From Brucella thiophenivorans (GTDB taxonomy: Bacteria > Pseudomonadota > Alphaproteobacteria > Rhizobiales > Rhizobiaceae): a stretch of 64,000 bases of DNA. Location of the stretch: contig NZ_NNRJ01000019.1 in NCBI RefSeq assembly GCF_002252445.1, forward strand, positions 186,001-250,000. The letters run 5' to 3'. The position numbers and the translations under genes are program-made. Shown in pieces: positions 31,148 to 51,885 of this stretch. Numbering within the stretch: the first letter of the stretch is position 1; each line of letters opens with the position of its first letter. The notes under the pieces were generated by a model. The model saw only the letters and a list, made by a program, of their open reading frames with translations. It was not told where the DNA came from and did not search any database.

Positions 31148-31407
31148 TATCCGTGAAATTGTTTGTATTCTCGCATAGCAGCCGTCCGTCGATCATCCAG
31201 ATACGTTGCCAGATCATTAATATGAACGCCCTTCGCGGCCTTTTGACTTTCTTCGATTCGTACAAGTGGGATCTTGATGTCGCCGCAAGTCACTTTGCGT
31301 ACGAATTTTTCAGGCGTGAGGTGAGGGAAGTAATCACGGCAAAGGTCATCCACCGGGATTATAGCTTTGCCGCTGTATTGAGCCATTAGAAGGAAAGCGG
31401 TGTTCAT
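31147..31407 (-). CDS. PrtN-family (pyocin activator) protein
   Basis: An 86-residue protein with the PrtN-like pattern: NTAFLLMAQYSGKAIIPVDD, then a CRDYFPHLTPEKFVRKV segment and the C-terminal GVHINDLATYLDDRR. In Pseudomonas, PrtN turns on pyocin genes after RecA-driven loss of PrtR. The family also occurs in many rhizobial prophages as a small putative activator. It is the last gene of the leftward operon and overlaps the methyltransferase gene by four bases. Its targets here are unknown. Confidence 0.75.
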   Translation of the reverse strand: MNTAFLLMAQYSGKAIIPVDDLCRDYFPHLTPEKFVRKVTCGDIKIPLVRIEESQKAAKGVHINDLATYLDDRRTAAMREYKQFHG

Positions 31408-31886
31408 TTCTGCACCTCGTAAGGCTTAAGGAAGCAAATCCAGTGCGTATTCGCCTGCTTGCCAGACACATGCCCGACGACAGGCCGAACATCAGTAAGC
31501 GCGAGTATTTCCCGCACTTTGATCTGCGTTTCGTTCCATTTGAAAATCAGTGTGCCGTTTGGTTTCAAGACGCGGAAAGCTTCAGAAAAACCCTGCCGAA
31601 GATCCTCGCGCCAAGTTGCGCGGTTCAACGCACCATATTTTGCGCGAAGCCAACTTCTCTCACCGGCATTGACCAGATGCGGCGGATCAAAGACGGCAAG
31701 GCTGAATGTCTCGTCGTCAAACGGTAGGTTTCGGAAGTCGATAACGCGGTCTGGCGAAATGATTAACTCGCGGCCGTCGCAAAGAACGTGGCTTTCTTCG
31801 CGAATGTCGCCAAACACAGCTCGGTCATCCGTCTTGTTAAACCAGAACATGCGGGATCCGCAGCACAAGTCGAGGATGGGCTTCAT
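31404..31886 (-). CDS. Phage SAM-dependent methyltransferase
   Basis: A 160-residue class I methyltransferase. Motif I is ILDLCCGSRMFWF at the N terminus, and the catalytic-type motif is FDPPHLVNAGERSW at about 71-84, a DPPH variant of the DPPY of N-methylating enzymes. FRVLKPNGTLIFKW follows. Similar short proteins are common in phages and may methylate DNA. The ATG at 31886 overlaps the stop of the C5 methylase gene by four bases, so translation is coupled. Confidence 0.8.
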   Translation of the reverse strand: MKPILDLCCGSRMFWFNKTDDRAVFGDIREESHVLCDGRELIISPDRVIDFRNLPFDDETFSLAVFDPPHLVNAGERSWLRAKYGALNRATWREDLRQGFSEAFRVLKPNGTLIFKWNETQIKVREILALTDVRPVVGHVSGKQANTHWICFLKPYEVQK

Positions 31887-33856
31887 GCTGCTTCCTTTCG
31901 GGCGATGAGGTTTTCGCAATTTGCGGATACGAGCGCGGCGGCAACGGGCGGGCAAACACTGTTGCCGCAGCATGAAACCTGTACTGATTTTGAAAATGTC
32001 TGTCCGTCTGGACCGCGTTCGATCTCATAACCTTCTGGAAAGCCCTGAGCGCGGTAAAGCTCGCGCGGCACAAGCATGCGCATGCCGATATCGACAATGA
32101 TGTAAGTCACGCCACCGGATTCGATGGTGACGAATTCACGATGATCCCAGAAACCAAACGACCTAAGAAAATCAGCCACCGTGCGGGCGCCCACGGCCTG
32201 TTCCGGCGTAAATGGTGGAACATCAAGCGCAGCCTCAACATGGCCGTGACGATCTTTGGTTGTCACCGTGCGCACTGGCTCGTTTTCGGCACCGCCGTCG
32301 CCAGTGCCATAGTATGCTTGGAGGAAGGGTGCGACGATGCCTTGCTGGCTTCCCGTCTGCGTGACAGTCGATAGCGGCTCGCTCACAGATCTTCCGGGAT
32401 TGACACCACCGGCACGACGGCTGTCGTTGTTATGCTGCGCCACATAGGCGGCAATCAGCTGCGACTTGCCTGCGCCGTCTGCCATTACCGTGTGAGTCGG
32501 CTCTTCAATACTATGGCCCGTAGATGTCCCAAATTGGCGAGCGATGAATGTAGAGGCGACGGCGTGTTTGATACCGCCTGCAACAGCGGTTCCCAATGGT
32601 TGTTCGATATCCAGTGCGCGCGGTGCTTGCGCTTTGCGCTCGCCATAGCCGATCTGCACTAATGTCGGTGCAATGACGCTGTTCTGATCCTTGCGGCTGG
32701 CCGTGATTGTGTGCGACGGTGCATTGATTGGCCTGTTGGATCCACCGTGCTGTGCAGCGGTCAGAATAGGCGCGATAACTGCATGGCGATTTTCTGTAAC
32801 TACCGTGGCGATAGGCGCGTCAAGCTTCGAAACTCGCTCTGATCTTTCGTTGCCGTGCCCGTAGTATGATGCAAGGTGAGGCGCGATGATGCCTAGTGGC
32901 GCAGCGCCTCCCGGTCTTTTGATGTAGCTGTTGGAGGTAATGGTCGATAGCGGCTCGCGAAGATCCTGACCTGTCGCACCCGTATTAAAGCGAATGATTG
33001 ATGGTGCAGCGAGATTGACCAGAAATGGCGCCTCTGCATCCAGCACATATCGCTTCATGCCACGCGCCACGCGGGCCATGGTATTGTGCGCCAGCGGACG
33101 AATGGCGCGGAGGCCATGCTTTTCCATGATGTCTGCACCTGTGTCGAAGATTGAAGGGCAGGGCAGTGACCAGTCAATGATTTCAGCTGCGGTACGCCAT
33201 GGCTGCTTTTTGCCTGCCATAACGTCTTTATCGTCGGGTGCGCCGTGGGTCGGTTCTGGCCATACAATTGGCTCGCCATCAAAGCGCATGATGACGAAGA
33301 AGCGCTTCCGGATTGTGGGCGCACCATAGTCGCATCCTCGGATCTCGCGCCATTCAATCTTTGCGCCAAGCCGCTTGAGCTTTTTGCACCAACGCTGGAA
33401 ATCTTCGCCCTTGCGCTCTGGATCTGGCATTAGGCCGGCTGATGTTTCAATCAGCGGTCCCCAGTCGCGGAACTCCTCGACGTTTTCGAGAATTGCAACA
33501 TCCACCTTGCCGCCACTTTTCTGAATGCGTTCGATCCAGCCCGGAATGATCCATGCCAGATCCCGGATATTGCGCTCGACAGTCTTACCGCCTTTCGCCT
33601 TGGAAAAGTGCTTACAGTCAGGCGAAAACCACGCCAGCCCGACATGAGCACGTTGCAGGTAGTCAAGTGGATCAATCTTGTAGACGTTCTGCGAAACATG
33701 GAGCGTCTGCGGGTGGTTTGCTTCGTGCAATGCCAGCGCCGCCGCATTGTGATTAATGGCAATGTCAGGCGAACGGCCAAGGGCCATTTCAATGCCGGTG
33801 CTGGCACCGCCGCCGCCTGCAAAAGAATCAACGATGATGGGCTGGCTTGTTTGCAT
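31883..33856 (-). CDS. Phage DNA cytosine-C5 methyltransferase
   Basis: A 657-residue C5 methylase. Motif I is DSFAGGGGASTGIEMALG, motif IV with the nucleophile Cys is WFSPDCKHFSKAKGG, motif VI is ILENVEEF, motif VIII is near GCDYGAPTIRKRFF, and motifs IX/X are ELYRAQGFPEGYEI and SCCGNSVCPP. The target-recognition region (about 270-520) is large and contains several similar blocks such as TVVTENRHAVIAP and TVTTKDRHGHVEA. It probably protects phage DNA from host restriction. It is the main gene of the leftward operon. Confidence 0.93.
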   Translation of the reverse strand: MQTSQPIIVDSFAGGGGASTGIEMALGRSPDIAINHNAAALALHEANHPQTLHVSQNVYKIDPLDYLQRAHVGLAWFSPDCKHFSKAKGGKTVERNIRDLAWIIPGWIERIQKSGGKVDVAILENVEEFRDWGPLIETSAGLMPDPERKGEDFQRWCKKLKRLGAKIEWREIRGCDYGAPTIRKRFFVIMRFDGEPIVWPEPTHGAPDDKDVMAGKKQPWRTAAEIIDWSLPCPSIFDTGADIMEKHGLRAIRPLAHNTMARVARGMKRYVLDAEAPFLVNLAAPSIIRFNTGATGQDLREPLSTITSNSYIKRPGGAAPLGIIAPHLASYYGHGNERSERVSKLDAPIATVVTENRHAVIAPILTAAQHGGSNRPINAPSHTITASRKDQNSVIAPTLVQIGYGERKAQAPRALDIEQPLGTAVAGGIKHAVASTFIARQFGTSTGHSIEEPTHTVMADGAGKSQLIAAYVAQHNNDSRRAGGVNPGRSVSEPLSTVTQTGSQQGIVAPFLQAYYGTGDGGAENEPVRTVTTKDRHGHVEAALDVPPFTPEQAVGARTVADFLRSFGFWDHREFVTIESGGVTYIIVDIGMRMLVPRELYRAQGFPEGYEIERGPDGQTFSKSVQVSCCGNSVCPPVAAALVSANCENLIARKEAA

Positions 33857-38416: not shown

Positions 38417-39253
38417 ATGCGTGAGTACGATCCCGCTGACGATTCCAAAAAATGCTATGACCTTGCTGTCCAAGTGAAGCGCGAGCGTGGCGATACGCAT
38501 TGGCCGCAACGCGATCCGCATGAGCGCAAGGTCGTCATCGGCAATTGCACGCTCTATCTCGGTGACTGCAACGCGATTGTTCCCACGCTCGGAATGATCG
38601 ATGCCGTTGTCTCGGATCCTCCATATGAGTTTGAAACATCGGGCGGCGGCAAGTTTCGCTCAAAACGGCCGAACATGGACCTAATTGCGGCGGGCGGTCT
38701 TGATCAAGGCTTTGATCATAGCGTTTTCACTAGCAAGCAATTCGGCTCTGCTGTGTTTTTCGCGCACAATGATCAGTGGGCTGATCTACTGCCGTATCTC
38801 GCGTCACAGTATGATCGCTATGCAATCATTCCATGGATGAAGCCGAATGCCATGCCGGTGGCGAATAAGCATTATCGGCCCGATATCGAAATATATGTTC
38901 ATGCCTGGAATAGCGGTTTCCACCCGGTCGGCGATCTTCATCAGAAAAAGCGCTTCATCATCGCCAAGAATGGCCAAGACAGCGATGTCGCGCATCCGAC
39001 GGTCAAGCCCCAGACCGTCATGTCGAAAATCATCTGCAATGTTGCAGGGCAGGTGGTGCTTGATCCGTTTATGGGCAGTGGATCAACCGGCGTTGCTTGC
39101 GTGAGCGCTGGCCGCTCTTTTATCGGCATAGAACGCCATGAGCCTTATTTTGAGATTGCATGCGAACGCATTCGCAAGGCTCATGCACAGTCCGACATGC
39201 TGGTTTCCGCGCCGCCGCTATCCGCGCCTGCAAAGCAGGAGGGCTTTCTGTGA
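38417..39253 (+). CDS. Phage DNA N-methyltransferase, beta class
   Basis: A 278-residue N6-adenine or N4-cytosine methylase. The catalytic motif DPPYEFETSGGGKF comes first (about 70-83) and the SAM motif LDPFMGSGSTGVAC last (about 214-227), the order of beta-class enzymes such as CcrM. AHPTVKPQTVMSKII precedes the SAM motif. It is probably an anti-restriction or regulatory methylase. It ends in a GTGA overlap with the next gene. Confidence 0.93.
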   Translation: MREYDPADDSKKCYDLAVQVKRERGDTHWPQRDPHERKVVIGNCTLYLGDCNAIVPTLGMIDAVVSDPPYEFETSGGGKFRSKRPNMDLIAAGGLDQGFDHSVFTSKQFGSAVFFAHNDQWADLLPYLASQYDRYAIIPWMKPNAMPVANKHYRPDIEIYVHAWNSGFHPVGDLHQKKRFIIAKNGQDSDVAHPTVKPQTVMSKIICNVAGQVVLDPFMGSGSTGVACVSAGRSFIGIERHEPYFEIACERIRKAHAQSDMLVSAPPLSAPAKQEGFL

Positions 39254-39570
39254 CCGCAAGCCCGAACCTTATCGGCGGCATGAACGATAACATTCTGCCA
39301 ATCTTGCAGGGCATAATCTGTGCTACAAATGACGCCGACCGCGCATTGGTACTGCTCGTTTGCCCTATCCGTATCATGATCCAGTATCAGCCATTCTTGG
39401 AGCGCACATGCTCTGAGCAAGGCTTTGAGGCTGGCTGCGAATATCTCACGTGCTTTTACGCCGCCATGAACCAGACGCGCCGCAATGGCGAGATGGTCAA
39501 TTCAGCGCTCGATCAAGCACGCCAAACGCTACTTCTTCTTCTTACACAAAATGACGGGGGTGACGCATGA
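39250..39570 (+). CDS. Phage early protein, unknown
   Basis: A 106-residue helical protein starting at a GTG that overlaps the methylase stop. Its middle is NDNILPILQGIICATNDADR and the C-terminal half is helical, with QTRRNGEMVNSALDQARQTL. No family is recognised. The overlaps on both sides (GTGA before, ATGA after) support it as a real gene. Confidence 0.65.
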   Translation: MTASPNLIGGMNDNILPILQGIICATNDADRALVLLVCPIRIMIQYQPFLERTCSEQGFEAGCEYLTCFYAAMNQTRRNGEMVNSALDQARQTLLLLLTQNDGGDA

Positions 39571-40103: not shown

Positions 40104-41281
40104 AGGAAGAGGCAACAATCCGCCGTGGCGCTCGAAACGCGCGTTATGCGGCAATTCCTAATCATGTGTTCGAGGAAGTGCGTCTCTCAATGGAGGCTCG
40201 CTGGCTTCTTGGTTATCTGCTGTCCAAGCCGGATAACTGGACGGTGGTGCTGCGCGACATCATCAATAAGGGCAATTGCGGTCGCGACAAGGCGCGCCGA
40301 ATGGTTGCTGAACTTGTCGAGCTTGGCTATGCGCAGAAAGAGCAGGCGAGGGACGGCGGACGTTTTAGCGCCTTGTCACTTGTCATCTATGATGAGCCGT
40401 TTGCAGTCGAAGTGACTGAAAGTGTTGCATCTTTACCGCAGACTGAAAAACCGTCGACGGTAAATCCGTCAACGGAAAAACCGGCGCCGGTAAATCCCCC
40501 CCTAGTAATAACTGATAATCTAGAAAATACAGATAATAGATCTGAGAGAGGCGCGAGCGCGAATGATCAGGAAGATCGAAAGAAAATAGAGAAGGCTTAC
40601 TGGAAGCTGGTTCGGTCATGGCCAAAGCTCGATGGAACACCGCAGGCCAAGTGGTTCGATTCATGGCTGGCACTAACGCCGGAAGAGCGCATTCTTGCCG
40701 CTGAAAAGCGCGATGCGTGGGTTGAGTTACTTCGCTCCAATGGTCGCGATCATATCCACGTTCCCGGTACTTACTTCGAAAACAAGCTTTGGGAGCAAGT
40801 GCCAGACGCCCCGACGGTATCAACAGATCAACCAGCTCGCCTCGAAGCCAAGCCGTTCGGTAAGCTGTTCGCTATCGAGGTCTATCGGAATTTCTTGACA
40901 GTCTCGCCGGGGATGATTTCTGCGCCTACGGCTTTTGAGCGTGCACAGATCGAACGTTGTGAGCGAATCGAAGGCGACATCTATCGCGAAAAGCTGGTGA
41001 AACAAGGATGGACCGATGTCGAGGGCATGTTTGAGCGTGCCGCGACGGGCCGTTCTGTTGTGGTCTCTGGTCGTTTGGCTGGCCTTGCCGATCGGATGGA
41101 ATCAATCAGTGTCGGCAGTGAACGTTGGCTTGCATGGAAAGCATACCACGAAGATCGTGGCTGGCGTTGGTATCCATCTCCTGACTGGTTGAAATGGGTT
41201 TGTTTCCCATCAGGTGGCCCAGATGGAATGAAAGACTTTGAAACAGCTTTGAGGGGAATTGGTGATGATGATGGCAGATAA
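40100..41281 (+). CDS. Phage replication protein with N-terminal winged helix
   Basis: A 393-residue protein. Residues about 8-110 form a winged helix-turn-helix of the type at the N terminus of phage replication initiators (YAAIPNHVFEEVRLSMEARW, GRDKARRMVAELVELGYAQK). A short Thr/Pro linker with repeated KPSTVNPSTEKP-like text follows, then a second domain with a VRSWPKLDGTPQAKWFDSW segment. It may be an origin-binding or helicase-loading protein. The ATG overlaps the previous stop, and its end overlaps the NusG-like gene by about 17 bases. Confidence 0.75.
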   Translation: MKEEATIRRGARNARYAAIPNHVFEEVRLSMEARWLLGYLLSKPDNWTVVLRDIINKGNCGRDKARRMVAELVELGYAQKEQARDGGRFSALSLVIYDEPFAVEVTESVASLPQTEKPSTVNPSTEKPAPVNPPLVITDNLENTDNRSERGASANDQEDRKKIEKAYWKLVRSWPKLDGTPQAKWFDSWLALTPEERILAAEKRDAWVELLRSNGRDHIHVPGTYFENKLWEQVPDAPTVSTDQPARLEAKPFGKLFAIEVYRNFLTVSPGMISAPTAFERAQIERCERIEGDIYREKLVKQGWTDVEGMFERAATGRSVVVSGRLAGLADRMESISVGSERWLAWKAYHEDRGWRWYPSPDWLKWVCFPSGGPDGMKDFETALRGIGDDDGR

Positions 41282-41918
41282 GCGTCTCACTGACCAGGCA
41301 GAAGAAATTGACCTCACACGGTGCTATGCAAAGCTGGATCGGTTCATGGATGAACGTAAGCGCAGGCGTGCTGCAATTGAAAAGGCCGCTGTTCGCGGCG
41401 ATAGTGATTCGCCTTGGATGGTGCTTCAAGTCAGCACTGGTAGGGAAATAACGGTGCATGATACGCTTATCGGTGGTGGAATAGAAACGATTGCCCCCAT
41501 GAAAATGGGGAAGAAAATACATCGAAGAGGGCACGTTTTACCGGCAAAAAAGGTACCAATTTTCATCGGTTATCTCTTCGTACGTTGTGTAGTAAACAAT
41601 GATAATCTTGCGTGCCTATTGGGTTTTGACCATGTGCAATCAATACTTGGAGGCTACGAGAATCCGTTCTTGGTCGATTCTATAAAAGTATTATCATTCA
41701 ATGATAAAGCGGGAAAAGGTCACTTTGATTATGAAGTTCCACAACGGGTCTTTCAACGCGGAATGAAGGTACGTATTAAGGACGGAATTTTTGAGAATAT
41801 GTCCGGTGAAGTTGTGACAGGCGGACATACTGGAAAGGGTGATGCAGTGGTTGATATTAATTTCTTCGGTAGATCAACGCACGCAATTATGCCTCTTGCA
41901 ATTCTCGAACCTTTGTGA
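41265..41918 (+). CDS. NusG-like protein encoded by the phage
   Basis: A 217-residue protein with a basic N-terminal extension of about 48 residues, a NusG N-terminal-type domain (WMVLQVSTGREITVHDTLI at 51-69 and PIFIGYLFVRC at 98-108), and a C-terminal KOW-like segment (RGMKVRIKDGIFENMSGEVV, about 165-184, ending in IMPLAILEPL). NusG binds RNA polymerase and modulates pausing and termination; specialised paralogues such as RfaH act on single operons. Here it is the last early gene, before a structured gap and the late genes, the place of a lambda Q-type antiterminator. GAGGGGAA precedes the ATG chosen. Base composition is AT-richer than its neighbours. Confidence 0.82.
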   Translation: MMMADKRLTDQAEEIDLTRCYAKLDRFMDERKRRRAAIEKAAVRGDSDSPWMVLQVSTGREITVHDTLIGGGIETIAPMKMGKKIHRRGHVLPAKKVPIFIGYLFVRCVVNNDNLACLLGFDHVQSILGGYENPFLVDSIKVLSFNDKAGKGHFDYEVPQRVFQRGMKVRIKDGIFENMSGEVVTGGHTGKGDAVVDINFFGRSTHAIMPLAILEPL

Positions 41919-42142
41919 GTCTTATTGGTTAACGGATAGTCTGATGATCCTGTAGTTAGCCTCTGAGAACACCTAGACAGCGGGAACGTAAGTTCTGAGG
42001 TTGGTAAACCGGTCGGACCCCAGCCCTGACAGTCTCAATCAAGAGATATCGATTCAGGGTCAGAGCGTAAGCTATGTCTGAAATTCACCACCGATACTGA
42101 GCGCCCTTTGTGGCGCTCTTACCATATGTATATGAGGCTGAC
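41919..42142 (+). ncRNA. Structured intergenic region before the late genes
   Basis: About 220 bases with no gene but several possible stems: CCTCTGAGAAC with GTTCTGAGG near 41961-42001, CCCTGA with TCAGGG near 42023-42060, and a seven-pair hairpin GAGCGCC/GGCGCTC at 42099-42118 that looks like a weak terminator. It could be the RNA or DNA site at which the NusG-like protein acts, or a late leader. No known RNA family is recognised. Confidence 0.4.
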
Positions 42143-42457
42143 GTGAGCCAACGTATTGAGCGCGAGCGTGATGCAGCTGCGCCATGGCGCAAGTGGTATA
42201 AGACCGCTCAATGGCAGAAGCTGCGGGAGGATGTTCTCAATCGTGACCTGTTCACCTGCCAGCAATCCGGGGTTCTCCTGATTGGCAAGTATCCCGCTCC
42301 GAACAGCGCTGTTGTCGATCACATCAAAGAGCATCGCGGTAACGCTGATCTCTTCTGGGATATCAACAACCTTCAGGCTTTGAGCAAAGCTTATCACGAC
42401 ACCGAAAAGCAGAAGCAAGAGCAGGCAACCCTGCATCATCGTGGCGTTTGGGATTAG
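42143..42457 (+). CDS. HNH endonuclease, phage packaging type
   Basis: A 104-residue HNH nuclease with WYKTAQWQKLREDVLNRD at the start, a Cys in FTCQQSG, the catalytic AVVDHIKEHRGN, and NNLQALSKAYHDTEKQKQE with the HNH Asn and His. In HK97-type phages an HNH protein next to the terminase stimulates cutting at cos, and the gene lies in that place. The GTG at 42143 has GAGG upstream; a GTG at 42110 lies in the terminator-like hairpin and is less likely. Confidence 0.88.
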   Translation: MSQRIERERDAAAPWRKWYKTAQWQKLREDVLNRDLFTCQQSGVLLIGKYPAPNSAVVDHIKEHRGNADLFWDINNLQALSKAYHDTEKQKQEQATLHHRGVWD

Positions 42458-42460
42458 TGA

Positions 42461-42694
42461 TTAAACCTTGTTGGCTGACTGACGCGATTGCCAATAACGG
42501 TTACGCAAACGAGGCGCGATCAACCACGAAATGCCGGGGCTGAGAACAATGCTTGTAACGACAGCGACTGGTAGCCAAAACTTAGCGTCTTCATTCAGAG
42601 CAGGGATCGAGAGCACCGCAATGGTTCCTATCCCGAAGATGACAGCATTGACCATCAGGCTGATGAGTGCGGCAATCTGAAAACGAACTGACAT
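42461..42694 (-). CDS. Small membrane protein on the opposite strand (probable moron)
   Basis: A 77-residue protein with two hydrophobic segments (ALISLMVNAVIFGIGTIAVL and PVAVVTSIVLSPGISWLI) and a basic C terminus. It runs against the late operon between the HNH and terminase genes and has an excellent AGGAGG before its ATG, so it has its own promoter and was probably inserted as a cargo gene. No family is recognised. A role in superinfection exclusion would fit a small membrane protein but is a guess. Confidence 0.7.
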   Translation of the reverse strand: MSVRFQIAALISLMVNAVIFGIGTIAVLSIPALNEDAKFWLPVAVVTSIVLSPGISWLIAPRLRNRYWQSRQSANKV

Positions 42695-42758
42695 ATCGAA
42701 GTCCTCCTCATAAATGAACGCTCATGCACGGTGCAGGTTCCTTGGATCAAGAATGCGG

Positions 42759-42842
42759 CGTGAAACATCGCCCGTGAAACATCAGGCAGGGGGGGCGGGT
42801 CGAAAGTCAAAAAGGGGTCTGCCTCCTAGACCCGCGTCCCCC
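42759..42842. promoter_or_regulatory. Candidate cos / terminase-binding region
   Basis: Two 11-base direct repeats CGTGAAACATC (42759-42769 and 42773-42783, 14-base spacing) stand beside a very GC-rich imperfect stem, a G7-CGGGTC arm at 42789-42801 with GACCCGC-GTCCCCC at 42829-42842. A second arm, GGGTCT (42815-42820), can pair with the same right side. It lies directly before the small terminase gene, where cos sites of HK97-like phages are found. Confidence 0.5.
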
Positions 42843-42863
42843 ACATGAAGAGATTTTTTTCTC

Positions 42864-43346
42864 ATGACGATTGAATTTGACCTCTTCGGTCAGCCTGTTC
42901 GTGAAGGTTTTGGCAAGAAGGGACGGCCACCATATGCGCCATCTGAAAAAGATCGTAATAAAGTCAAGCTGTTACTGGCTTTAGGGTGGTCAATCTCTCG
43001 GATTGGTAACGCGCTTGATGTGTCGGGAAAGACAATTCAGCGGTATTTTAGTCTCGAGCTAAAATCGCGAGACGGCATGCGGGATAGACTGGATGCGCGG
43101 CGATTTGAGATTGCCATGGATCAAGCCAACGCCGGGAACGTCACAGCACTTCGAGAACTTGGCGCGATGATTGAGCGCAACGACCGCATGGTGATTGAGG
43201 CTGCAATGGGTTCTAAGGGTAATGATGATGATCGGCCCGCAGATCGACCAGGCAAAAAAGCAACCGACGAACAGCGAGCGATGGCCGCAGACGCTGATCT
43301 GATGGCGGAGCTCGAAGCCGAGGCTTCGCAGAATGTCATCCAGTAA
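42864..43346 (+). CDS. Phage terminase small subunit
   Basis: A 160-residue protein with a helix-turn-helix in the first half (LLALGWSISRIGNALDVSGK, TIQRYF), a central helix MRDRLDARRFEIAMDQANAG and an acidic/Lys C-terminal tail. This matches the role of small terminases that recognise cos or pac and recruit the large subunit. It overlaps the large subunit start by 14 bases. The DNA it should bind lies just upstream (direct repeats at 42759). Confidence 0.8.
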   Translation: MTIEFDLFGQPVREGFGKKGRPPYAPSEKDRNKVKLLLALGWSISRIGNALDVSGKTIQRYFSLELKSRDGMRDRLDARRFEIAMDQANAGNVTALRELGAMIERNDRMVIEAAMGSKGNDDDRPADRPGKKATDEQRAMAADADLMAELEAEASQNVIQ

Positions 43347-45039
43347 TACCCTGCCGCGCTTTGCCTGCCCAGATTGGTGGGATCGGATTCAGGCCGGACA
43401 GACCCCCATGGCAGATGTTCCGCTTAACCCTGAGAAAGCAGCGAAAGCGCTGGCATTCTTTAATCGCTTGCGACTGCCAGATGTTCCCGGCAACCCGGCT
43501 TTGGCAGATGCTTGCGGTGATTGGTTTCGCGATATTCTATGTGCATTTTTGGCGAGTGAGGATCCCGAAACGCGAAAGCGGCTCGTTTGGGAGCTGCTCT
43601 GCATGGTTCCTAAGAAGAACTCGAAGACAACATATGTTGCGGCCTTGGGCCTGACAGCGCTTTTCATGGAGGAAGCGCCTAACCGTCAAATGCTGATTGT
43701 TGCACCGAGTCAGAATATCTCGGAGCGCTGTTTTGATCAGGCACAGGGCATGATCCGAATTGATCCGCGTCTTGATGCGATATTCAAGGTGCAGGATCAT
43801 CTCAAATGCATCACGCGTCGTAAGACCGGCACGAAACTGGATGTGAAAACCTTCGACACGTCGATTGTCACCGGCGAAATCCCAATCCTGACAATCATCG
43901 ATGAGTTGCACGAGCTCGGCAAGAAAGCCAAGGCCGCAGCCGTCATGCAGCAAATCCGGGGCGGCGGTATAACCATGCAGGGCGGTCAAGTCCTGATGAT
44001 TACCACTCAATCGGATGAACAACCGGCAGGGATCTGGAAAACCGAACTCGATAAGGCTCGCAAGGTTCGTGACGGTGTCGGCGGTCAATCGCCAATCCTC
44101 CTGCCGGTGCTTTATGAGTTTCCTGCCGATTTGCAGCGCAGTCAGGATTTCTGGCGAAGCCATAGGAACTGGCGCTATGTGCTACCGAATATTGGGCGTT
44201 CAATTGACCCACAGCGGCTTCTTGACGATTACGAGAATAACGGCAAGGTCAACAAAGAGGCTGAAAAGATATGGCTTAGCCAGCATCTCAACATCGAAAT
44301 CGGCGTTGGTCTTACCGATGATGCGTGGCGAGGCGGCGACTACTGGGAAGATCGCGCAGATCCAACACTCACACTTGATGAGTTGATACGGCGCTCGGAA
44401 GTTGCCGTCATGGGAACGGATGGCGGCGGTCTGGATGATCTTTTCGGTGTCTGTGTCATTGGTCGTGAGAAGGTGACACGGCGCTGGCTGGTTTGGTGTC
44501 ATGCCTATGCGCATCCGAGTGTTCTTGAAACACGTAAGGAAATAGCCGCTAATCTGAGAGACTTTGAAGCGGAAGGTAGTCTCACATTCTGCGATGTTTC
44601 CAAATACATCAATGAGATAGCGGATATTGCTTCTCGATTGCGCGATGCGGGCCTGTTTCCCGAAAAGGACGCAATAGGCTCTGATCCAAACAATATAGCG
44701 GCGTTCATCGATGCGTTGGCCGAACGCAATATCGTCGATGAAATGTTTCGTCGCATTCGTCAGGGTACGGCGCTTTCCCCGGCAATATGGGGGCTGGAGC
44801 ACAAGCTCAGCAACGATACGCTCAGCCATGACGGTAGCACGCTGATGAACTGGGTTATCGGCAACGTCAAAATCGAGATTCGCGATAATGGCAACCTCGC
44901 CACGAAACAGGCGGCAGGCCGAGCGAAGATCGATCCATTCATTGCGATGCTTTGCGCCACAATCCTGATGAGCTGGAACCCGGAAGCGACCGGCACTGGC
45001 ATGAATGATTACTTCAATAGCTTGGCAGGTGCAGGGTGA
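43333..45039 (+). CDS. Phage terminase large subunit
   Basis: A 568-residue packaging motor of the HK97/Terminase_1 type. The Walker A-like segment is MVPKKNSKTTYVAALG (about 93-108), the Walker B with catalytic Glu is ILTIIDELHELGKK, and the C-terminal nuclease domain begins AVMGTDGGGLDDLFGV with the metal-binding Asp residues. It cuts concatemers and pumps DNA into the prohead using ATP. It ends in a GTGA overlap with the portal gene. Confidence 0.96.
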   Translation: MSSSNTLPRFACPDWWDRIQAGQTPMADVPLNPEKAAKALAFFNRLRLPDVPGNPALADACGDWFRDILCAFLASEDPETRKRLVWELLCMVPKKNSKTTYVAALGLTALFMEEAPNRQMLIVAPSQNISERCFDQAQGMIRIDPRLDAIFKVQDHLKCITRRKTGTKLDVKTFDTSIVTGEIPILTIIDELHELGKKAKAAAVMQQIRGGGITMQGGQVLMITTQSDEQPAGIWKTELDKARKVRDGVGGQSPILLPVLYEFPADLQRSQDFWRSHRNWRYVLPNIGRSIDPQRLLDDYENNGKVNKEAEKIWLSQHLNIEIGVGLTDDAWRGGDYWEDRADPTLTLDELIRRSEVAVMGTDGGGLDDLFGVCVIGREKVTRRWLVWCHAYAHPSVLETRKEIAANLRDFEAEGSLTFCDVSKYINEIADIASRLRDAGLFPEKDAIGSDPNNIAAFIDALAERNIVDEMFRRIRQGTALSPAIWGLEHKLSNDTLSHDGSTLMNWVIGNVKIEIRDNGNLATKQAAGRAKIDPFIAMLCATILMSWNPEATGTGMNDYFNSLAGAG

Positions 45040-46277
45040 ACGTATTACAGAAAATGTTCGACGGCGTGTCCAGGCTCTTGCCAATCAAGCGTAACACCTC
45101 GCTTGAAGATCTTCGACATAGTGGCCTTTCCGCTTCAGGTGAGATCGTCACTGATACAAGTGCGCTTTCACTTTCTTCGGTCTGGGCTTGCGTCAATCTA
45201 ATATCCGGCACGATCTCATCGCTGCCAATCATGGTTTACCGTACGAATGCTGACGGAAACCGCGACGTTGCGAAGGATCATTCACTTTATCGCCTGTTGC
45301 ACGACAGCCCAAACTATGACCAATCGGCATTAGATTTCTGGGATTTCATCTCTGCATCAATTGAGCTTCGCGGAAATGGATTTGCTCAGATCGTAAGACT
45401 GAATGGCAAGATTGTTTCCCTCAACCCCGTCAATCCAGCCCACATGCAGGTTCGTAGGCTGCCTTCCGGTGAGTTGCAATACAGTTGGAGTTCAGAGGGA
45501 AAGAGCTATGTCTCCAGTGATCGCGATATGCTTCATATTCGTGGTTTCGGCGGCAATCCTCTCGGCGGTATGTCCACGTTGCGTTTCGCGCGCAATTCGT
45601 TCGGATTGGCAATATCTGCTGAACGATCTGCAGCAGATATGTTCCGAAATGGTCTTCGACCTACGGGCGTATTGAAGTTCAAGCCATGGCTCACGCCAGA
45701 GCAACGCAAGATCGCAGAGAATGAACTTGCCGCCAAAATGGGCGCGGGCAATTCTGGAAAGCCGCTTGTTCTTGAGGGTGATACCAGTTGGGAACAGCTG
45801 ACGATATCGCCAGAAGATGCCCAGATGCTGGAAAGCCGCACTTTCTCTGTGGAAGATATTTGCCGGTTCTTTGGCGTTCCGCCACACATGGTCGGACATA
45901 CAACAAAGGCAACCAGTTTCGGCACAGGCATTGAAAGCCAGACATTAGGCTTCCAGAAGTTCACATTGCGTCGTCGCTTTAAACGTATTGAGCAGGCTCT
46001 GGAAAAGCAGCTTCTCACGGCGGCTGATCGGGCGGCAGGTATCGCTATTGAGTTCAATCAGGAGGGCTTGCTTCGCGGAGATAGCAAGGGCCGCTCTGCA
46101 TTCTATCAGGTCATGACTGCCATCGGCGCGATGACGATTAATGAAGTTCGCAGGCTTGAAAATCTTCCCCCAGTTGAAGGCGGCGACGTTCCCCGCATCC
46201 AGATGCAGAACGTGCCAATCACCGAAACCGAAAACGATTTGATCGGCCACAACGGTGGTCCGCCACTTGAGGATTGA
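45036..46277 (+). CDS. Phage portal protein, HK97 family
   Basis: A 413-residue portal protein with the family blocks SSVWACVNLISGTISSLP, FWDFISASIELRGNGFAQIV, DMLHIRGFGGNPLGGMSTLR and ICRFFGVPPHMVGH. Twelve copies form the vertex through which DNA enters and leaves the head. The start is a GTG overlapping the terminase stop. Its end comes just before the protease gene, in standard head-gene order. Confidence 0.95.
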   Translation: MNVLQKMFDGVSRLLPIKRNTSLEDLRHSGLSASGEIVTDTSALSLSSVWACVNLISGTISSLPIMVYRTNADGNRDVAKDHSLYRLLHDSPNYDQSALDFWDFISASIELRGNGFAQIVRLNGKIVSLNPVNPAHMQVRRLPSGELQYSWSSEGKSYVSSDRDMLHIRGFGGNPLGGMSTLRFARNSFGLAISAERSAADMFRNGLRPTGVLKFKPWLTPEQRKIAENELAAKMGAGNSGKPLVLEGDTSWEQLTISPEDAQMLESRTFSVEDICRFFGVPPHMVGHTTKATSFGTGIESQTLGFQKFTLRRRFKRIEQALEKQLLTAADRAAGIAIEFNQEGLLRGDSKGRSAFYQVMTAIGAMTINEVRRLENLPPVEGGDVPRIQMQNVPITETENDLIGHNGGPPLED

Positions 46278-46282
46278 TCGTT

Positions 46283-46969
46283 ATGAAAACTAAAGATTTC
46301 GCCCTTCAGGTGAAAGGGCTGTCTGATGATGGCAGCTTCGAAGGCTATGCCAGCACGTTTGGTGGATCTCCGGACAGTTATGGCGATATCGTGGCGCCGG
46401 GTGCTTTTGCTGAAACTCTGGTCGAACATCACCGATCAGGCACCATGCCGATGATGTATTTTGGGCATGATTCCCGGTCTTTGCCGATTGGTGATTGGTT
46501 GGAAATGGCTGAGGACGGTAAAGGTCTTTTGGCCAAAGGCCAGATCGATATCGAAGACGAGTTTGGCTTCCGCATTCACAACGCCATGAAAAAGAAGCGG
46601 GTGAGGGGATTATCCATCGGATACTCCATTCCTGCGGGCGGTTCTGAGCCAGACGAAAAGCGCCCCGGCGTTACGATCCTGAAAAAGATCAAGCTGGTTG
46701 AAGTGTCTGTGGTGAACAACCCTGCAAATAAGCGCTCTCTGATAGAGACTGTAAAGTCTGACCGCATGGAGGAATTTGCCCGACGCTTGCGCGACGGCGA
46801 TCCCATGCCAATCAAAGAATTTGAGGGCATCCTACGCGAGGTAGGGGTTCCCAATAGCCTAGCCACACAGATTGCCTCTGTTGGTTACGCGAAAGCCGTT
46901 CTGGGCGAGCCAGAGGGCGAAAAGGCAGATCCAAGGGCCGACTTTATGCGGGCAATGATGCGCGCCTGA
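46283..46969 (+). CDS. HK97-type prohead protease
   Basis: A 228-residue serine protease of the U35/herpes-assemblin-like group. It has FEGYASTFGGSPDSYGDIV at the N terminus, the catalytic His in MMYFGHDSRSLPIG and the Ser in RVRGLSIGYSIPAGG. It trims the scaffold part of the capsid protein during maturation. ATG 46283 has GAGG upstream; a TTG three codons earlier is in frame. It lies between the portal and capsid genes as expected. Confidence 0.93.
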   Translation: MKTKDFALQVKGLSDDGSFEGYASTFGGSPDSYGDIVAPGAFAETLVEHHRSGTMPMMYFGHDSRSLPIGDWLEMAEDGKGLLAKGQIDIEDEFGFRIHNAMKKKRVRGLSIGYSIPAGGSEPDEKRPGVTILKKIKLVEVSVVNNPANKRSLIETVKSDRMEEFARRLRDGDPMPIKEFEGILREVGVPNSLATQIASVGYAKAVLGEPEGEKADPRADFMRAMMRA

Positions 46970-47000
46970 CGGCCAAGTTTATTCCTCACGGAGATATTCC

Positions 47001-48347
47001 ATGAAAACGGTTACCTTTAACCGGGTGTTTGTACTCGGTATTTTCGCATGCCTTGCGCTCGCCTCCGTCGCTGTATTGTTCGGCGTCGATCACGGCGTAG
47101 CAGGCAGTTTTATGATGGCAACCGCTGGCGCTGGCGCGTCTGCCGGTGTCGAAGAACTCGCCGCAGACCTGAAAAAGAGCTTTGCCAAAGAGCACGACAA
47201 GGTCAAAGAACTGGCAGAACAGGCTCTTACCGAAGCCAAGAAAAACGGCGATATGAGTCAGGGGCTGAAGGAAAAGGCCGATGAAGCCCTTTCCGGCATG
47301 AATGAAATCAAGGCTCGCCTTGATGACATTGAGCAGAAATCGGCACGAAACGGTTCTGGCGAACAGCAGCATCGCACGCTGGGTCAGCAGTTTGTTGATC
47401 TGGAAGAACTGGAAGCGATGAAGTCCGCTCCTCGCAGCGGAGCATCGGCTAGCCTTATGATCAAGGCTGACATCACGTCTGGTACCGCCGATTCAGCCGG
47501 TAATGTTGGTGCAGCAATCGCGCCGAACCGCCTGCCGGGTGTTCTTGCTCTGCCGCAGCGCAAGCTCACTGTTCGTGATCTGCTGTCGCCCGGACAGACG
47601 GATAGCCCGAACATCCTGTACGTTCAGGAAACGGGATTCACCAACAATGCCGCACCTGTCGGTGAAGGTGGTCTTAAGCCTCAGTCTGATCTGAAGCTGA
47701 CGGATAAGAACATTTCCACGAAGGTTATCGCTCACTGGTTCCGTGCATCTAAGCAGATCCTGAGCGATTTCTCGCAGGTACGTTCGCTGATCGATGAGCG
47801 GCTGATCTACGGCTTGAAGCTAGTCGAAGAAAACCAGATCCTCAATGGTGACGGCACCGGCGAAAATCTGGAAGGCATCGTTCCACAGGCAACCGCTTAC
47901 GCTGTCCCTGCCGGTTTGACCTCTCCAGTACCGGTGACGGGCATCGATGTTCTGCGTATCGCCATGTTGCAGGCGGCTCTGGCAGAGTATCCCGCAACTG
48001 GCCACGTTCTTCATCCTATCGACTGGGCTTCTATCGAACTGCTCAAGGATACTGAAGGTCGCTACGTTATCGGAAATCCGCAAGGGTCGCTTAATCCGAC
48101 GCTGTGGAACCTTCCGGTTGTCGAAACGCAGGCAATCTCGGTCGGCAAGTTCCTGACTGGCGCATTCAAGCTCGGTGCGCAGATCTTTGACCAATGGACC
48201 AGCCGTATCGAAGTTGGATTCCAGAATGATGACTTCGTTCGCAACAAGGTGACGATCCTTGGTGAAGAGCGCCTGGCTCTCGCTGTCTACCGTCCTGAAG
48301 GCTTTATTTACGGCAACGTGACACCGGCATCTGGCGGCGGCGGCTGA
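47001..48347 (+). CDS. Major capsid protein, HK97 fold
   Basis: A 448-residue capsid protein. Residues about 48-125 are a coiled, Lys/Glu-rich delta domain (AADLKKSFAKEHDKVKELAE), and residues about 150-445 are the HK97 fold, with VRDLLSPGQTDSPNILYVQE, WFRASKQILSDFSQVRSLID and NQILNGDGTGENLEGI. The protease should remove the delta domain. The first 37 residues include a hydrophobic run (VFVLGIFACLALASVAVLFG) that looks like a membrane segment, unusual for a capsid protein. ACGGAGA supports the ATG at 47001. A hairpin follows the stop. Confidence 0.95.
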   Translation: MKTVTFNRVFVLGIFACLALASVAVLFGVDHGVAGSFMMATAGAGASAGVEELAADLKKSFAKEHDKVKELAEQALTEAKKNGDMSQGLKEKADEALSGMNEIKARLDDIEQKSARNGSGEQQHRTLGQQFVDLEELEAMKSAPRSGASASLMIKADITSGTADSAGNVGAAIAPNRLPGVLALPQRKLTVRDLLSPGQTDSPNILYVQETGFTNNAAPVGEGGLKPQSDLKLTDKNISTKVIAHWFRASKQILSDFSQVRSLIDERLIYGLKLVEENQILNGDGTGENLEGIVPQATAYAVPAGLTSPVPVTGIDVLRIAMLQAALAEYPATGHVLHPIDWASIELLKDTEGRYVIGNPQGSLNPTLWNLPVVETQAISVGKFLTGAFKLGAQIFDQWTSRIEVGFQNDDFVRNKVTILGEERLALAVYRPEGFIYGNVTPASGGGG

Positions 48348-48366
48348 TCTTGATCGGCTCAGATCG

Positions 48367-48390
48367 ACGGGCGGCGCAATCCGCCCGTTT
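48367..48390 (+). terminator. Terminator-like hairpin after the capsid gene
   Basis: Eight-base arms ACGGGCGG/CCGCCCGT with a six-base loop, followed by TTTCC. It could lower expression of genes after the capsid gene. Confidence 0.6.
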
Positions 48391-48412
48391 CCTGAACCGA
48401 AGGAGAAAGACC

Positions 48413-48847
48413 ATGAAATTCGAAGTTCTTCGCGAGCATATCGGCGACAAGTTTTACAAGGAAGGTGAAACCCGTGATGCGGATGAACTCACCGTCAAGC
48501 AGCTTGTCCGTAATGGCGTGCTTCGCCCTATCTCGGACGAAAAATCCTCCAGTACCGCCTCAATTGACCAGTTGCAGGCTGGGACGAATGGCGGCGACAA
48601 CTCTGCACCATCGGGCTCGGCGAGCGCAAATTCAGATGGCAACGATTGTACGGCTAGCGATCAAACCGATGACGCTCAAAAGGCGGGCGCGGTGCAGACA
48701 GAAGCGCTTGCGGCAACATCGGCGGAAGATATTACTGTGACGAAAGCTTCTGGCGAGCCAGCTGTGACATCAAATGAACAAAAGTCAGAAGGTGATGCCG
48801 CTCAGAATAAGGCAGAGCCAGCTGCACCCAAGAACAAGAGCAAGTGA
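48413..48847 (+). CDS. Phage head protein with disordered C terminus
   Basis: A 144-residue protein. The first 45 residues are ordered (FEVLREHIGDKFYKEGETRD, LTVKQLVRNGVL), resembling small head-decoration or joining proteins found after capsid genes. The remaining 100 residues are Ser/Ala/Asp/Lys-rich low complexity. GAAGGAG precedes the ATG at 48413. Function is only inferred from its place between the capsid and connector genes. Confidence 0.7.
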   Translation: MKFEVLREHIGDKFYKEGETRDADELTVKQLVRNGVLRPISDEKSSSTASIDQLQAGTNGGDNSAPSGSASANSDGNDCTASDQTDDAQKAGAVQTEALAATSAEDITVTKASGEPAVTSNEQKSEGDAAQNKAEPAAPKNKSK

Positions 48848-48848
48848 T

Positions 48849-49412
48849 ATGCAGCTCGCGCCAGTTCGCGTCGGCGTCACGGGCGAGCAGCCTGTGTCGC
48901 GGGATGAAGCCAAGCGGCACGTAGGTGCCGTTGGTTTCACTTCTGATGATCTGGATATTGATGGCTTTATCAAAAGCGCAACAGGGTATCTGGAAAAGCT
49001 GTTGGGGACGGCGCTTGTTAAGCAGAAATGGCGACAGGATCTTTCTTGTTTCCCGTCACGCTTTTATCTGACGCCGTTTCCAGTCATTTCGTTGTCGTCG
49101 GTGAAATATCTATCAGACAACAGTCTCGAAACACTCGATATGCAGGATTACGAACTTTATACGGACATCACTGGTCCGTTCGTTCAATTCTTCACGCAAA
49201 GCTTTCCGCAGACTGCGGATCGACCTGACGCTGTCCAGATCACTTATGAAAGCGGTTTCGAGACTGATCAATTACCAGCCGAATTGAAGGCAGCAATCCT
49301 GATTCATGTCGGATATCTCTATGGACATCGCGGTCAGCCCGATATGCCGACGATTGAGGATATCCCTGCGTATAAGATGTTGGTTTGGCCGCATCGCAGA
49401 CTGGGGGTGTAG
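48849..49412 (+). CDS. Head-tail connector protein (gp6-like)
   Basis: A 187-residue protein of the HK97 gp6/SPP1 gp15-type connector group: VSRDEAKRHVGAVGFTSDDL with IDGFIKSATGYLEKLLG, PFPVISLSSVKYLSDN, and the C-terminal LPAELKAAILIHVGYLYGHR. It forms a ring below the portal. The start at 48849 lies just after the preceding stop; the long upstream open reading is a frame shadow. Confidence 0.9.
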   Translation: MQLAPVRVGVTGEQPVSRDEAKRHVGAVGFTSDDLDIDGFIKSATGYLEKLLGTALVKQKWRQDLSCFPSRFYLTPFPVISLSSVKYLSDNSLETLDMQDYELYTDITGPFVQFFTQSFPQTADRPDAVQITYESGFETDQLPAELKAAILIHVGYLYGHRGQPDMPTIEDIPAYKMLVWPHRRLGV

Positions 49413-49414
49413 CT

Positions 49415-49762
49415 ATGGCAAAAACCTCAGGCAGTCTGTTTCATGAGGTCGCATTTGATCGGCGCGAAGCGACGGGTGGGGATGGCGCTGGAAACATCGA
49501 TGGCGATTGGGTTGAGCAATTTCGTTGCCGCGCTGAATTCATTCAGCTTCGTGGTGGTGAGGCGGTACTTGCGGGTCGATTGCAGGGGCGCCATACGCAA
49601 GTCATCCGAATTCGTGTCTCGGAGCATACTGTTTTGATCACGGCGGATTGGCAGGTGCGTGATATCCGGCGCGCAACTGTCTTCAATATTCGCGACATTG
49701 AGTTCGAAGAAAACCGCCAGTTCTTATCGCTCACATGCGAAAGCGGCGTAGCTACGGGGTGA
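49415..49762 (+). CDS. Phage head closure / head-tail adaptor
   Basis: A 115-residue beta-rich protein with WVEQFRCRAEFIQLRGGEAV, RLQGRHTQVIRIRVSEHT and ATVFNIRDIEFEENRQFLSL, matching the SPP1 gp16-type head-tail adaptor family. It closes the connector below the gp6-like ring. The ATG at 49415 lies two bases after the previous stop. Confidence 0.9.
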   Translation: MAKTSGSLFHEVAFDRREATGGDGAGNIDGDWVEQFRCRAEFIQLRGGEAVLAGRLQGRHTQVIRIRVSEHTVLITADWQVRDIRRATVFNIRDIEFEENRQFLSLTCESGVATG

Positions 49763-49766
49763 TGTC

Positions 49767-50201
49767 ATGGTTGAAGGATTAGATCGCCTTAAGCGAAAGC
49801 TGACAAAAACTATTCCGCAGGCTGTGTTCGACGTGACGATTAAGGCCATGGAACAGGGCGCTAGTGATGTCGTCGCCATGATGCGCCGTCTTGCACCAAA
49901 AGACAGTGGTGCGCTTGCACAGTCCATCAACTGGACGTGGGGAGATGCGCCTAAGGGCGCAATGGTGCTCGGTAAGTCATCCCCAACGCGTGACGGATTG
50001 GTCATCACAATCTACGCAGGTGATCAAACCACGATGGTTGGTGAACGCGAGCAGTTTCAGCTTGCCAGACTGCAAGAGTTTGGAACCCAGCACATGCAAG
50101 CTCATCCCTACTTTTTTCCATCTTGGAGAACTTTGCGGAAGAGGGTTCGCAGCCGGGTTACGAGACAAATGCGAAAAGCTGTGAGGGATGCTGCAAAGTG
50201 A
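49767..50201 (+). CDS. HK97 gp10-like tail component
   Basis: A 144-residue protein with the HK97-gp10 pattern: KTIPQAVFDVTIKAMEQGAS, MMRRLAPKDSGALAQSINW, and AGDQTTMVGEREQFQLARLQ leading to FGTQHMQAHPYFFPSWR. Proteins of this family sit at the head-tail interface. The end overlaps the next gene in a GTGA. Confidence 0.9.
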   Translation: MVEGLDRLKRKLTKTIPQAVFDVTIKAMEQGASDVVAMMRRLAPKDSGALAQSINWTWGDAPKGAMVLGKSSPTRDGLVITIYAGDQTTMVGEREQFQLARLQEFGTQHMQAHPYFFPSWRTLRKRVRSRVTRQMRKAVRDAAK

Positions 50202-50614
50202 ACGTTTCCGAAGAGCTTCAAAGACACCTTTATGCTGAACTTCGAGCAGTCCTAGAGGTCTCGACGCTAGCTGAGGGGCGGGTTTACGACCGGGTGCCTA
50301 GCACAGACGGGCAGGTTACTGCGCAGTTTCCGTATGTGTCTTTCGGGCCGGTCAATATGGTTGATGATTCCGCTGATTGTGTTGATGGCGAAACCCACAC
50401 GATTCAACTTGATGTGTGGTCTCGTGCAGTCGGACAAGTTGAGTGCAAAAACATTGTTGATGGCATCCGTAAAGCTTTGAACCGCTCTCAGCCTGAATTG
50501 GCAGAAAGCGCTGTGGTTGCCGTGAATATACCGATCTGCCAGATCGTCCGCGATCCGGACGGATTGACGACACATGGCATCATTCAAGTTGAAATTATGG
50601 TCGAGGTGGCGTGA
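50198..50614 (+). CDS. DUF3168-type tail completion protein
   Basis: A 138-residue protein: SEELQRHLYAELRAVLEVST, GRVYDRVPSTDGQVTAQFPY, THTIQLDVWSRAVGQVECK and the C-terminal GIIQVEIMVEV. This is the DUF3168 pattern, equated with tail terminators. The GTG at 50198 overlaps the preceding stop; a longer reading upstream is a shadow of the previous gene. Confidence 0.88.
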   Translation: MNVSEELQRHLYAELRAVLEVSTLAEGRVYDRVPSTDGQVTAQFPYVSFGPVNMVDDSADCVDGETHTIQLDVWSRAVGQVECKNIVDGIRKALNRSQPELAESAVVAVNIPICQIVRDPDGLTTHGIIQVEIMVEVA

Positions 50615-50814
50615 TGTCTTGGGCAATATTTAAAGTGGAATGCAACTGGTCGCGTCCGTGCAGTCGTTATTCGTTCAACGCCAAGGCATCGGCAGAACCG
50701 CAAGAACGTCCGCAAGACTTCATTGATTACTGCGTATCGAAAGGCTGGGCCGAAGCGGTCGCAAGCCCGACACGCGATGAGAAACGCGCCCTCAAGGGCC
50801 GTAAACGGGCTTAG
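50614..50814 (+). CDS. Small phage protein, unknown
   Basis: A 66-residue basic protein (WAIFKVECNWSRPCSRYSFN, then RPQDFIDYCVSKGWAEAV). It starts in a TGATG overlap with the tail completion gene, a GTG one codon earlier being the alternative. I do not recognise the family, but proteins with this FIDYCVSKGWAE text are known to me from tail regions of rhizobial prophages. Confidence 0.65.
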   Translation: MSWAIFKVECNWSRPCSRYSFNAKASAEPQERPQDFIDYCVSKGWAEAVASPTRDEKRALKGRKRA

Positions 50815-50830
50815 CCCAATCACCTGAAAC

Positions 50831-50875
50831 CGGGCCTCAAGCCCTATCAAGGCTGGCGTATTGCTGGCCCGTTTT
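50831..50875 (+). terminator. Hairpin before the tail-tube gene
   Basis: CGGGCC (50831-50836) pairs with GGCCCG (50866-50871), followed by TTTT, with an inner AGCC/GGCT pair. It may set the level of tail-tube message relative to the upstream genes. Confidence 0.45.
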
Positions 50876-50891
50876 CTCATGGAGAATTATC

Positions 50892-51742: not shown

Positions 51743-51885
51743 TCAATCGCGACATCGGCAAGATGACGGTTTGGGAATTTCGCTGTGCCGTTGAAGGCTT
51801 CAAATCCGCCAATGCGCCCGAAGAAAAAGCCGCTCCGGGTATGAGCGACGATCAACTTGCAGAACTTGGAATTGAGGGCTTCTGA
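51646..51885 (+). CDS. Tail assembly chaperone T part, reached by -1 frameshift
   Basis: An 80-codon open stretch in the -1 frame, without its own usable start before residue 39, overlapping the chaperone gene by 97 bases. Its protein text is ordered and phage-like: KWKFNRFYQWAGIINRDIGK, MTVWEFRCAVEGFKSANAPE and DDQLAELGIEGF. Its stop overlaps the tape-measure ATG (TGATG). The G-rich run 51651-51672 is the likely slip region. A separate start at the ATG 51762 is the alternative. Confidence 0.75.
   Translation, partial: SAGGGTSGGEEDPNPLPRGKWKFNRFYQWAGIINRDIGKMTVWEFRCAVEGFKSANAPEEKAAPGMSDDQLAELGIEGF

Follow-up and report, generated by a model that had tools for sequence, protein, structure and literature searches.

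The last early gene of a phage region in a 64-kb stretch of Brucella thiophenivorans DNA (the window; all positions are numbered within the whole of it) encodes a NusG paralogue and is followed by a leader RNA, behind which the late genes begin. This NusG paralogue is tied closely to its leader RNA, whichever of the two a search starts from. We consider it likely that they form a phage-specific processive antitermination module, in which the paralogue is loaded at its own leader RNA for the late operon. Directly established are the NusG family and fold of the protein, the protein-RNA pairing, the covarying structure of the RNA, a terminator-like hairpin behind it in most leaders and the position before the late genes. 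The original prediction, a phage NusG paralogue in the place of a Q antiterminator with a structured leader behind it, was confirmed as real and is stronger than had been claimed. Its interpretation as the late switch is supported by fold, protein-RNA pairing, covariation and gene order, from which we infer antitermination itself.

A phage protein with the NusG fold

41265..41918, + strand: phage NusG paralogue, 217 aa (Pfam, PHROG, profile search, model and Foldseek)
Parts of the paralogue, in residues: helical extension, 1-50; NGN domain from 51 (Pfam match 51-142); KOW beta-barrel, strands 168-216

The open reading frame (ORF) of the paralogue starts at 41265 (ATGATGATG) and ends at 41918; the ORF list has an alternative upstream TTG at 41259. 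Its Pfam match is the NusG family (39.6 bits, cut-off 22.2, E=7.5e-10), and among the PHROGs it matches phrog_6386, annotated as 'transcription antiterminator' (E=4.8e-31). When 59 proteins including that of the window were combined into a profile, this aligned with the solved E. coli NusG across both domains (E ~1e-34) and covered its C-terminal domain. For this profile eight of 71 proteins (below 195 aa or without a start) were set aside, which left 63, and four rows from the phages collection were excluded.

Structure prediction against NusG, RfaH and LoaP, the check proposed earlier, gave a NusG-like fold. The AlphaFold2 model made with the 59 sequences (predicted local distance difference test 88.8) consists of an N-terminal helix (residues 17-41), the NGN domain and a KOW beta-barrel with five strands between 168 and 216. 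When this model was compared with Foldseek, NusG structures ranked first and RfaH followed from rank 15, the best E-value being 3.8e-11. Template modelling scores over the whole chain, at 0.2-0.44 by query length, are low owing to a different placement of the two domains, and the identification rests on the E-values. Together with the Pfam match, the profile match to solved NusG and the strands of the model, this bears out the claim of a NusG-like protein with an NGN segment around W51 and a KOW segment. W51 itself is a tryptophan in all 59 proteins.

The protein had further been said to carry a basic N-terminal extension that host NusG lacks. The extension is general, with a median of 51 residues before W51 in the 59 proteins, and in the model it contains the helix 17-41. 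'Basic' was overstated: the net charge is +1 in the window protein, with a median of +3 and a range from -3 to +9. As the extension is only mildly positive and its sequence is not conserved, an arginine-rich motif for a boxB-like loop was not adopted.

The phage protein is distinct from the housekeeping NusG of the host, which is encoded on another contig. A tree places 24 phage proteins apart from 30 housekeeping NusGs (support 100/98), the branching order within the phage group being unsure owing to long branches. All NCBIfam models tried scored below their cut-offs: the housekeeping NusG equivalog 40.6 bits (cut-off 135.7), RfaH 24.4 (144.5), LoaP 26.5 (125) and UpxY, the highest, 49.1 (100). 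The position counted as the equivalent of E. coli NusG Phe165 is a phenylalanine in 37 of the 59 proteins, if a two-residue chain offset is assumed in the profile alignment. According to a review, Phe165 of NusG is required for the contacts with S10 and Rho (PMC6391919). Contacts of the S10 or Rho type may thus persist in part of the family.

PHROG matches bear out the gene order that had been described, with nusG as the last early gene, then the leader, then the late genes. A CI-like repressor, a CII-like gene and early genes on the + strand precede nusG. The HNH gene behind the leader is followed by a phrog_12540 gene, TerL, portal, protease, capsid and tail genes, and all late genes with PHROG matches, from HNH through the tail region, lie on the + strand of the window. 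No PHROG match to an N or Q family was found among the early proteins scanned, a set that excludes the early ORF 39160-39570.

A covarying leader RNA behind nusG

41934..41944, + strand: 5' strand of helix P1 (GGATAGTCTGA), 15 nt past the nusG stop codon (leader alignment and sequence)
41960..42000, + strand: possible P2 domain, CCTC (41960-41963) and GAGG (41997-42000) around GAAC-GTAA-GTTC (41984-41995)
42013..42020, + strand: 3' strand of helix P1 (TCGGACCC; leader alignment and sequence)
42023..42060, + strand: P3 hairpin, outer helix 42023-42029 / 42054-42060, inner helix P3b 42032-42036 / 42043-42047
42065..42076, + strand: invariant mini-hairpin GC-GTAA-GC, then TATG (pattern-found and protein-found element sets)
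42099..42118, + strand: terminator-like hairpin GAGCGCC-CTTTGT-GGCGCTC
42143..42457, + strand: HNH endonuclease family gene, first gene past the leader (PHROG matches)

The gap 41919-42142 separates nusG from the HNH gene, whose GTG start at 42143 is in frame with the listed ORF. At least three stems had been proposed for this gap. Its single-sequence fold gave z = -1.33, and 21 of 200 shuffles folded as well, so the structure is unconvincing from the window copy alone. Comparison with relatives reveals a structured RNA: a long-range helix P1, a two-part hairpin P3, the invariant mini-hairpin and then the terminator-like hairpin. The P2 region was read from the sequence, and its GAAC/GTTC hairpin is also present in the single-sequence fold; the covariation figures given here cover P1 and P3.

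The stems in the gap of related phages, which were to be inspected for covariation, are kept and do covary. A similarity filter of 0.92 reduced 114 elements to the 71 of the core alignment, and 57 of these form the full-leader alignment, 14 having been excluded by hand. In the core alignment 91.0% of the cells are paired, against 17-50% in slid controls, and two-sided changes number 62, against 22.6 in shuffled alignments. The full leaders, with 22 pairs, gave 91.6% paired cells (18-52% when slid), 111 two-sided changes (41.2 when shuffled) and a covariation of 0.264 (0.130 when shuffled). For none of these shuffled comparisons did any of 500 shuffles reach the observed value. The counted pairs were picked by hand from the sequences, and control (b) therefore leans toward those pairs. 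P1 is the clearest helix: columns 30/160 are C-G in 31 leaders and U-A in 20, and columns 28/162 are U-A in 31 and G-C in 17. RNAalifold on the MAFFT core alignment yielded 5 pairs only, because the inner loop was misaligned, and was not used further. Rfam had 0 matches in the whole window, with two far below the gathering score in 41900-42180; the leader thus adds an RNA family without an Rfam match.

The leaders fall into two length classes, and the P2 domain is absent or reduced in the 11 short ones. Despite very different leader lengths, P1 starts 13-18 nt past the nusG stop codon in all 57 aligned leaders (mode 16), which leaves no space for a promoter between nusG and the leader. A ribosome at termination extends about this far past the stop codon.

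The mini-hairpin was compared in two sets of elements. In the 37 distinct elements that were found through the protein, and hence not selected by pattern, the first GC, the A at the fourth loop position and the second GC are all invariant. The first loop base is G in 32 and T in 5, and the mini-hairpin is followed by TATG in 35 of the 37 (by CATG and TATA in one each). All 32 G-loops obey the GNRA rule (GAAA 20, GTAA 6, GCAA 5, GTGA 1). Among the 96 distinct elements listed from the pattern search, in which the fourth loop A is fixed by the pattern, the loops are GNRA in 66, TACA in 22 and GNYA in 8. The rule favors a loop that works as RNA. The layout C-[KNNA]-G before TATG also resembles the hairpin of the RfaH target ops, and we propose that mini-hairpin and TATG act as a loading site or pause, either as a boxB-like RNA loop or in an ops-like manner.

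The second of these options would mean that the end element is read as DNA, as a hairpin C-[KNNA]-G of the non-template strand at a pause, with the upstream stems serving as pause hairpin and antitermination still as the outcome. This is possible but rather unlikely. The closing GC/GC and the fourth loop A are indeed as in ops in 37 of 37 distinct elements. Yet the G-loops have the GNRA form (32/32 protein-found, 66/74 pattern-found among the matches listed), P1 and P3 covary as RNA, and the spacing between loop and TG exceeds that of ops by one base. The TACA and TATA loops fit neither rule clearly.

A tiny ORF often starts at the ATG of the invariant TATG (42074-42100, MSEIHHRY in the window; M-T-R-stop in 11 of 71 elements). 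In 43 of 71 the first in-frame stop comes no later than 10 codons on; the other two frames have such an early stop in 17 and 26. We do not rely on this count because related sequences inflate it. No clear Shine-Dalgarno sequence was seen before this ATG in the window and its relatives.

Of 70 leaders (one of the 71 has too little flank), 56 have a terminator-like hairpin no more than 100 nt behind the TATG, where 2.5 are expected from single-base shuffles; a control stretch had such a hairpin in 1 of 68. The longest ORF starting within 700 nt downstream was taken for each locus, which is not always the first gene, and one ORF may belong to several families. The 54 ORFs comprise the minor tail family (14), phrog_29138 (12), phrog_12540 (11), tail completion/neck (10) and HNH (7). 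The genes past the leader thus vary among the loci while the nusG-RNA pair stays.

These figures also bear on the idea that the gap, lying beside the terminase, serves for packaging as a cos or pac site and is structured by chance. Terminase or HNH genes do lie behind the element in some loci and in the window. Against a packaging site stand the two-sided changes that keep RNA pairs and the fixed orientation behind nusG at 13-18 nt from its stop, and the frequent terminator-like hairpin and the tail or neck ORFs downstream in many loci do not suit it either; we regard it as highly improbable.

Co-occurrence of protein and RNA

A pattern search for the RNA core, which is independent of the protein, matched at least 120 viral contigs. 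Among the 120 matches listed, 106 (96 distinct elements) have an ORF matching the NusG profile that ends 94-157 nt upstream. Five of the other 14 are true elements cut by a contig end, with RNA-model scores of 63.6-86.9 bits, and the remaining nine are chance matches (at most 16.2 bits). Among the matches listed, every true element with enough upstream sequence thus has its NusG ORF (106/106). Searches in the other direction started from the protein and gave 56 loci, of which 55 were examined (one with 42 residues at a contig end was left out); the element was found with E<0.01 in 52 of the 55, one partial at a contig end.

The leader could nevertheless function alone, as an antitermination RNA like put of HK022 or as a regulated attenuator, with the NusG paralogue as a mere neighbor or helper. 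That the RNA is large and covarying and keeps a model score of 53-91 bits (the chance match L174 apart) across proteins down to ~20% identity with the window's would suit such a role. We consider it unlikely in view of the co-occurrence in both directions, which holds though the downstream genes differ. Moreover, the leader is altered in three divergent NusG loci that lack the standard element (L216:1221-1420, L217:660-860, L218:3655-3855), as expected if protein and RNA co-evolve. In L216 and L217 a GGTGAAGC hairpin replaces P3 and GC-KNNA-GC-TATG is absent. This suggests other leader specificities within the same family.

The element follows nusG in the loci L003-L013, of which L004 is identical to the window; among those aligned the protein identity is 57-66%. 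The same element also lies behind nusG in the distant GenBank phages Rivra, Nsp-JY10, PPF1 and phi3LM21, whose proteins are 27-38% identical. In 397 genomes of the order a search with the RNA model, which scored 12 candidates per genome so that the low count is not a frequency, gave three matches: the own genome, G187 and G369. In G187 a true element lies behind a NusG-like C-terminus, as read by eye. The match in G369 (L174) has no element context on reading and was judged to be due to chance. In 41 genomes of the family the model matched the own genome and, as a candidate, G413. A second copy of the element was found neither in the window nor in any of the 66 sources searched by RNA model.

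The named phages with the module come mostly from Rhizobium-like bacteria. 'Nostoc phage Nsp-JY10' (L045, PP395642.1) has the module, with a leader 76% identical to that of the window; its stated cyanobacterial host may merit checking, because the other phage records matched come from Rhizobium-like bacteria. The element is also present on a 50-kb plasmid record of Sinorhizobium medicae (NZ_CP140896.1, 9146-9308), the match overlapping a NusG-family gene; this record is perhaps a phage-plasmid.

Proposed mechanism and known systems

In the mechanism that we propose, the early operon would be transcribed through nusG into the leader, and initially RNA polymerase would halt at the terminator just past it. 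After synthesis of the NusG paralogue, the closing helix P1, P3 and GC-KNNA-GC-UAUG would load it onto the polymerase from which the leader emerges, probably while the polymerase dwells near UAUG. The NGN domain would hold the clamp, as in other NusG-family factors, and the polymerase would then pass the terminator and continue through the late region of ~20 kb. The paralogue would thereby play the part of lambda Q, its site being located in the same transcript. Binding, pausing, antitermination and timing are the steps that we infer here.

Several observations weigh against this proposal. The number of pairs with a change on both sides is no higher than chance in the core set (246 of 500 shuffles as high) and shows a modest excess in the full set (17 of 500). 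In the 14 leaders excluded by hand the fit is good for P3 (92 of 96 cells), weaker for P1 (74 of 108) and poor for P3b (35 of 55); misalignment probably explains part of this. A terminator-like hairpin within 100 nt is missing from 14 of 70 leaders. The hairpin at 42099-42118, which had been taken for a terminator, stands as a good stem with a loop of 6, whereas its U-tract (TTACCATAT) is weak and consensus terminator scans omit it; many relatives have better U-tracts. A promoter-like match on the + strand lies inside nusG (41377-41405, 9 of 12), and several more are found on this strand in 42900-62700. For both regions the numbers are at chance level (6 found and 6.7 expected in the region scanned around nusG; 15 and 18.0, on both strands, in 42900-62700). 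A scan of 41700-42900 found no sigma-70-like site on the + strand, with a consensus that may not suit the host. Given the chance-level counts and a scan possibly unsuited to the host, a separate late or leader promoter may exist.

The co-occurrence has its own weak points. Three of the 55 protein-found loci (L216, L217 and L218) lack the standard element and have a changed leader instead. The protein-first queries came from phages known to have the element, the loci that they found include near-identical copies (37 distinct of 51 elements), and the two sets overlap, since 20 of 30 distinct pattern-bearing protein-found stretches are also pattern-found. Scans of 397 genomes of the order and of 398 from the phylum (overlapping sets) returned the exact pattern from no genome but the own one; they miss variants such as the true element with CTGTG in G187.

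The leaders without a terminator-like hairpin are likewise at odds with another explanation, namely that the phage makes a stable small RNA in the form of the terminated transcript, whose yield alone is altered by NusG. A structured RNA of ~200 nt with a terminator would be comparable to the lambda 6S RNA of the late leader. We hold this to be quite improbable. Antitermination by a paralogue loaded at its leader is our preferred interpretation.

One of the nearest known systems is LoaP of Bacillus with the dfn leader: this NusG paralogue works at a hairpin of the leader RNA and lets transcription pass an intrinsic terminator ahead of a long operon, with a pause between hairpin and terminator (PMC12691694). 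NusG paralogue, leader RNA hairpin and terminator of a long operon are alike in both. An intrinsic terminator in the leader, as in LoaP systems, is present as a terminator-like hairpin in 56 of the 70 leaders, with a weak U-tract in the window. The LoaP hairpin is small and of UNCG type, whereas here a leader of ~150 nt has a long-range helix and a GNRA/UACA mini-hairpin; the loops of the mini-hairpin, the only part compared, are GNNA, TACA or TATA and not UNCG. Furthermore, antibiotic genes are controlled in the LoaP case and phage late genes here.

RfaH, too, is a NusG paralogue that acts at a site with a C:G-closed four-base loop at a pause; in ops the loop G4-A7 is closed by C3:G8 (PMC5995543). 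In contrast to RfaH, the KOW domain is modelled here as a beta-barrel and not as a helical hairpin (one model; a fold switch is possible), the RNA is large and covarying, and the gene adjoins its proposed target. UpxY proteins serve Bacteroides capsule operons and are not known to use a comparable leader RNA. They resemble the present paralogue in being encoded inside their own target operons (PMC7593976) and in giving the top NCBIfam score, albeit below the cut-off.

With lambda Q and N the module shares the place of the last early gene before the late genes and a terminator-like hairpin at the entrance. It differs in its NusG fold, in a site directly behind the regulator's own gene and in the lack of an N or Q family match among the proteins scanned. 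It may even stand beside N and Q as a third kind of phage antitermination, based on a NusG paralogue with a dedicated leader ~16 nt past its own stop codon; ribosome termination on nusG, P1 folding and NusG loading at the GNRA/ops-like element would possibly be coupled as a timer of the late genes. We put this forward tentatively and with less than even confidence, and the coupling of nusG translation to leader folding is speculation.

All phiLM21-like prophages are described as having a 'transcription antiterminator' ORF, and this ORF and HNH are located where the early region ends (PMC12429752). As described, the arrangement is similar to ours; 'nusg' and 'hairpin' occur 0 times in the main text of that paper. 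A description of such a phage NusG leader or protein-RNA pair was not found in the excerpts of open-access literature searched on phage NusG, prophage antitermination and such leaders. The label of antiterminator for the protein was already known from phrog_6386 and GenBank. Within the literature searched, the novelty lies in the leader RNA with its covarying structure and in how closely it is tied to this group of NusG proteins.

The protein-RNA pair is easily recognised and comes in dozens of natural covarying variants, which makes it a system for studying how NusG paralogues find their sites. The module would explain how late genes are activated without a recognisable Q in a group of temperate phages, and it would link phage antitermination to the RfaH/LoaP branch of NusG evolution.

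Two further observations concern other genes of the window. A hydrophobic ORF of 77 aa without a PHROG match lies on the - strand between the HNH and phrog_12540 genes (42461-42694) and is perhaps a separately transcribed accessory gene. Two DNA methyltransferase genes are located at 31404-33856 on the - strand; the product of one has 657 aa and spans ~295 positions of phrog_116, so it may contain a large insertion.
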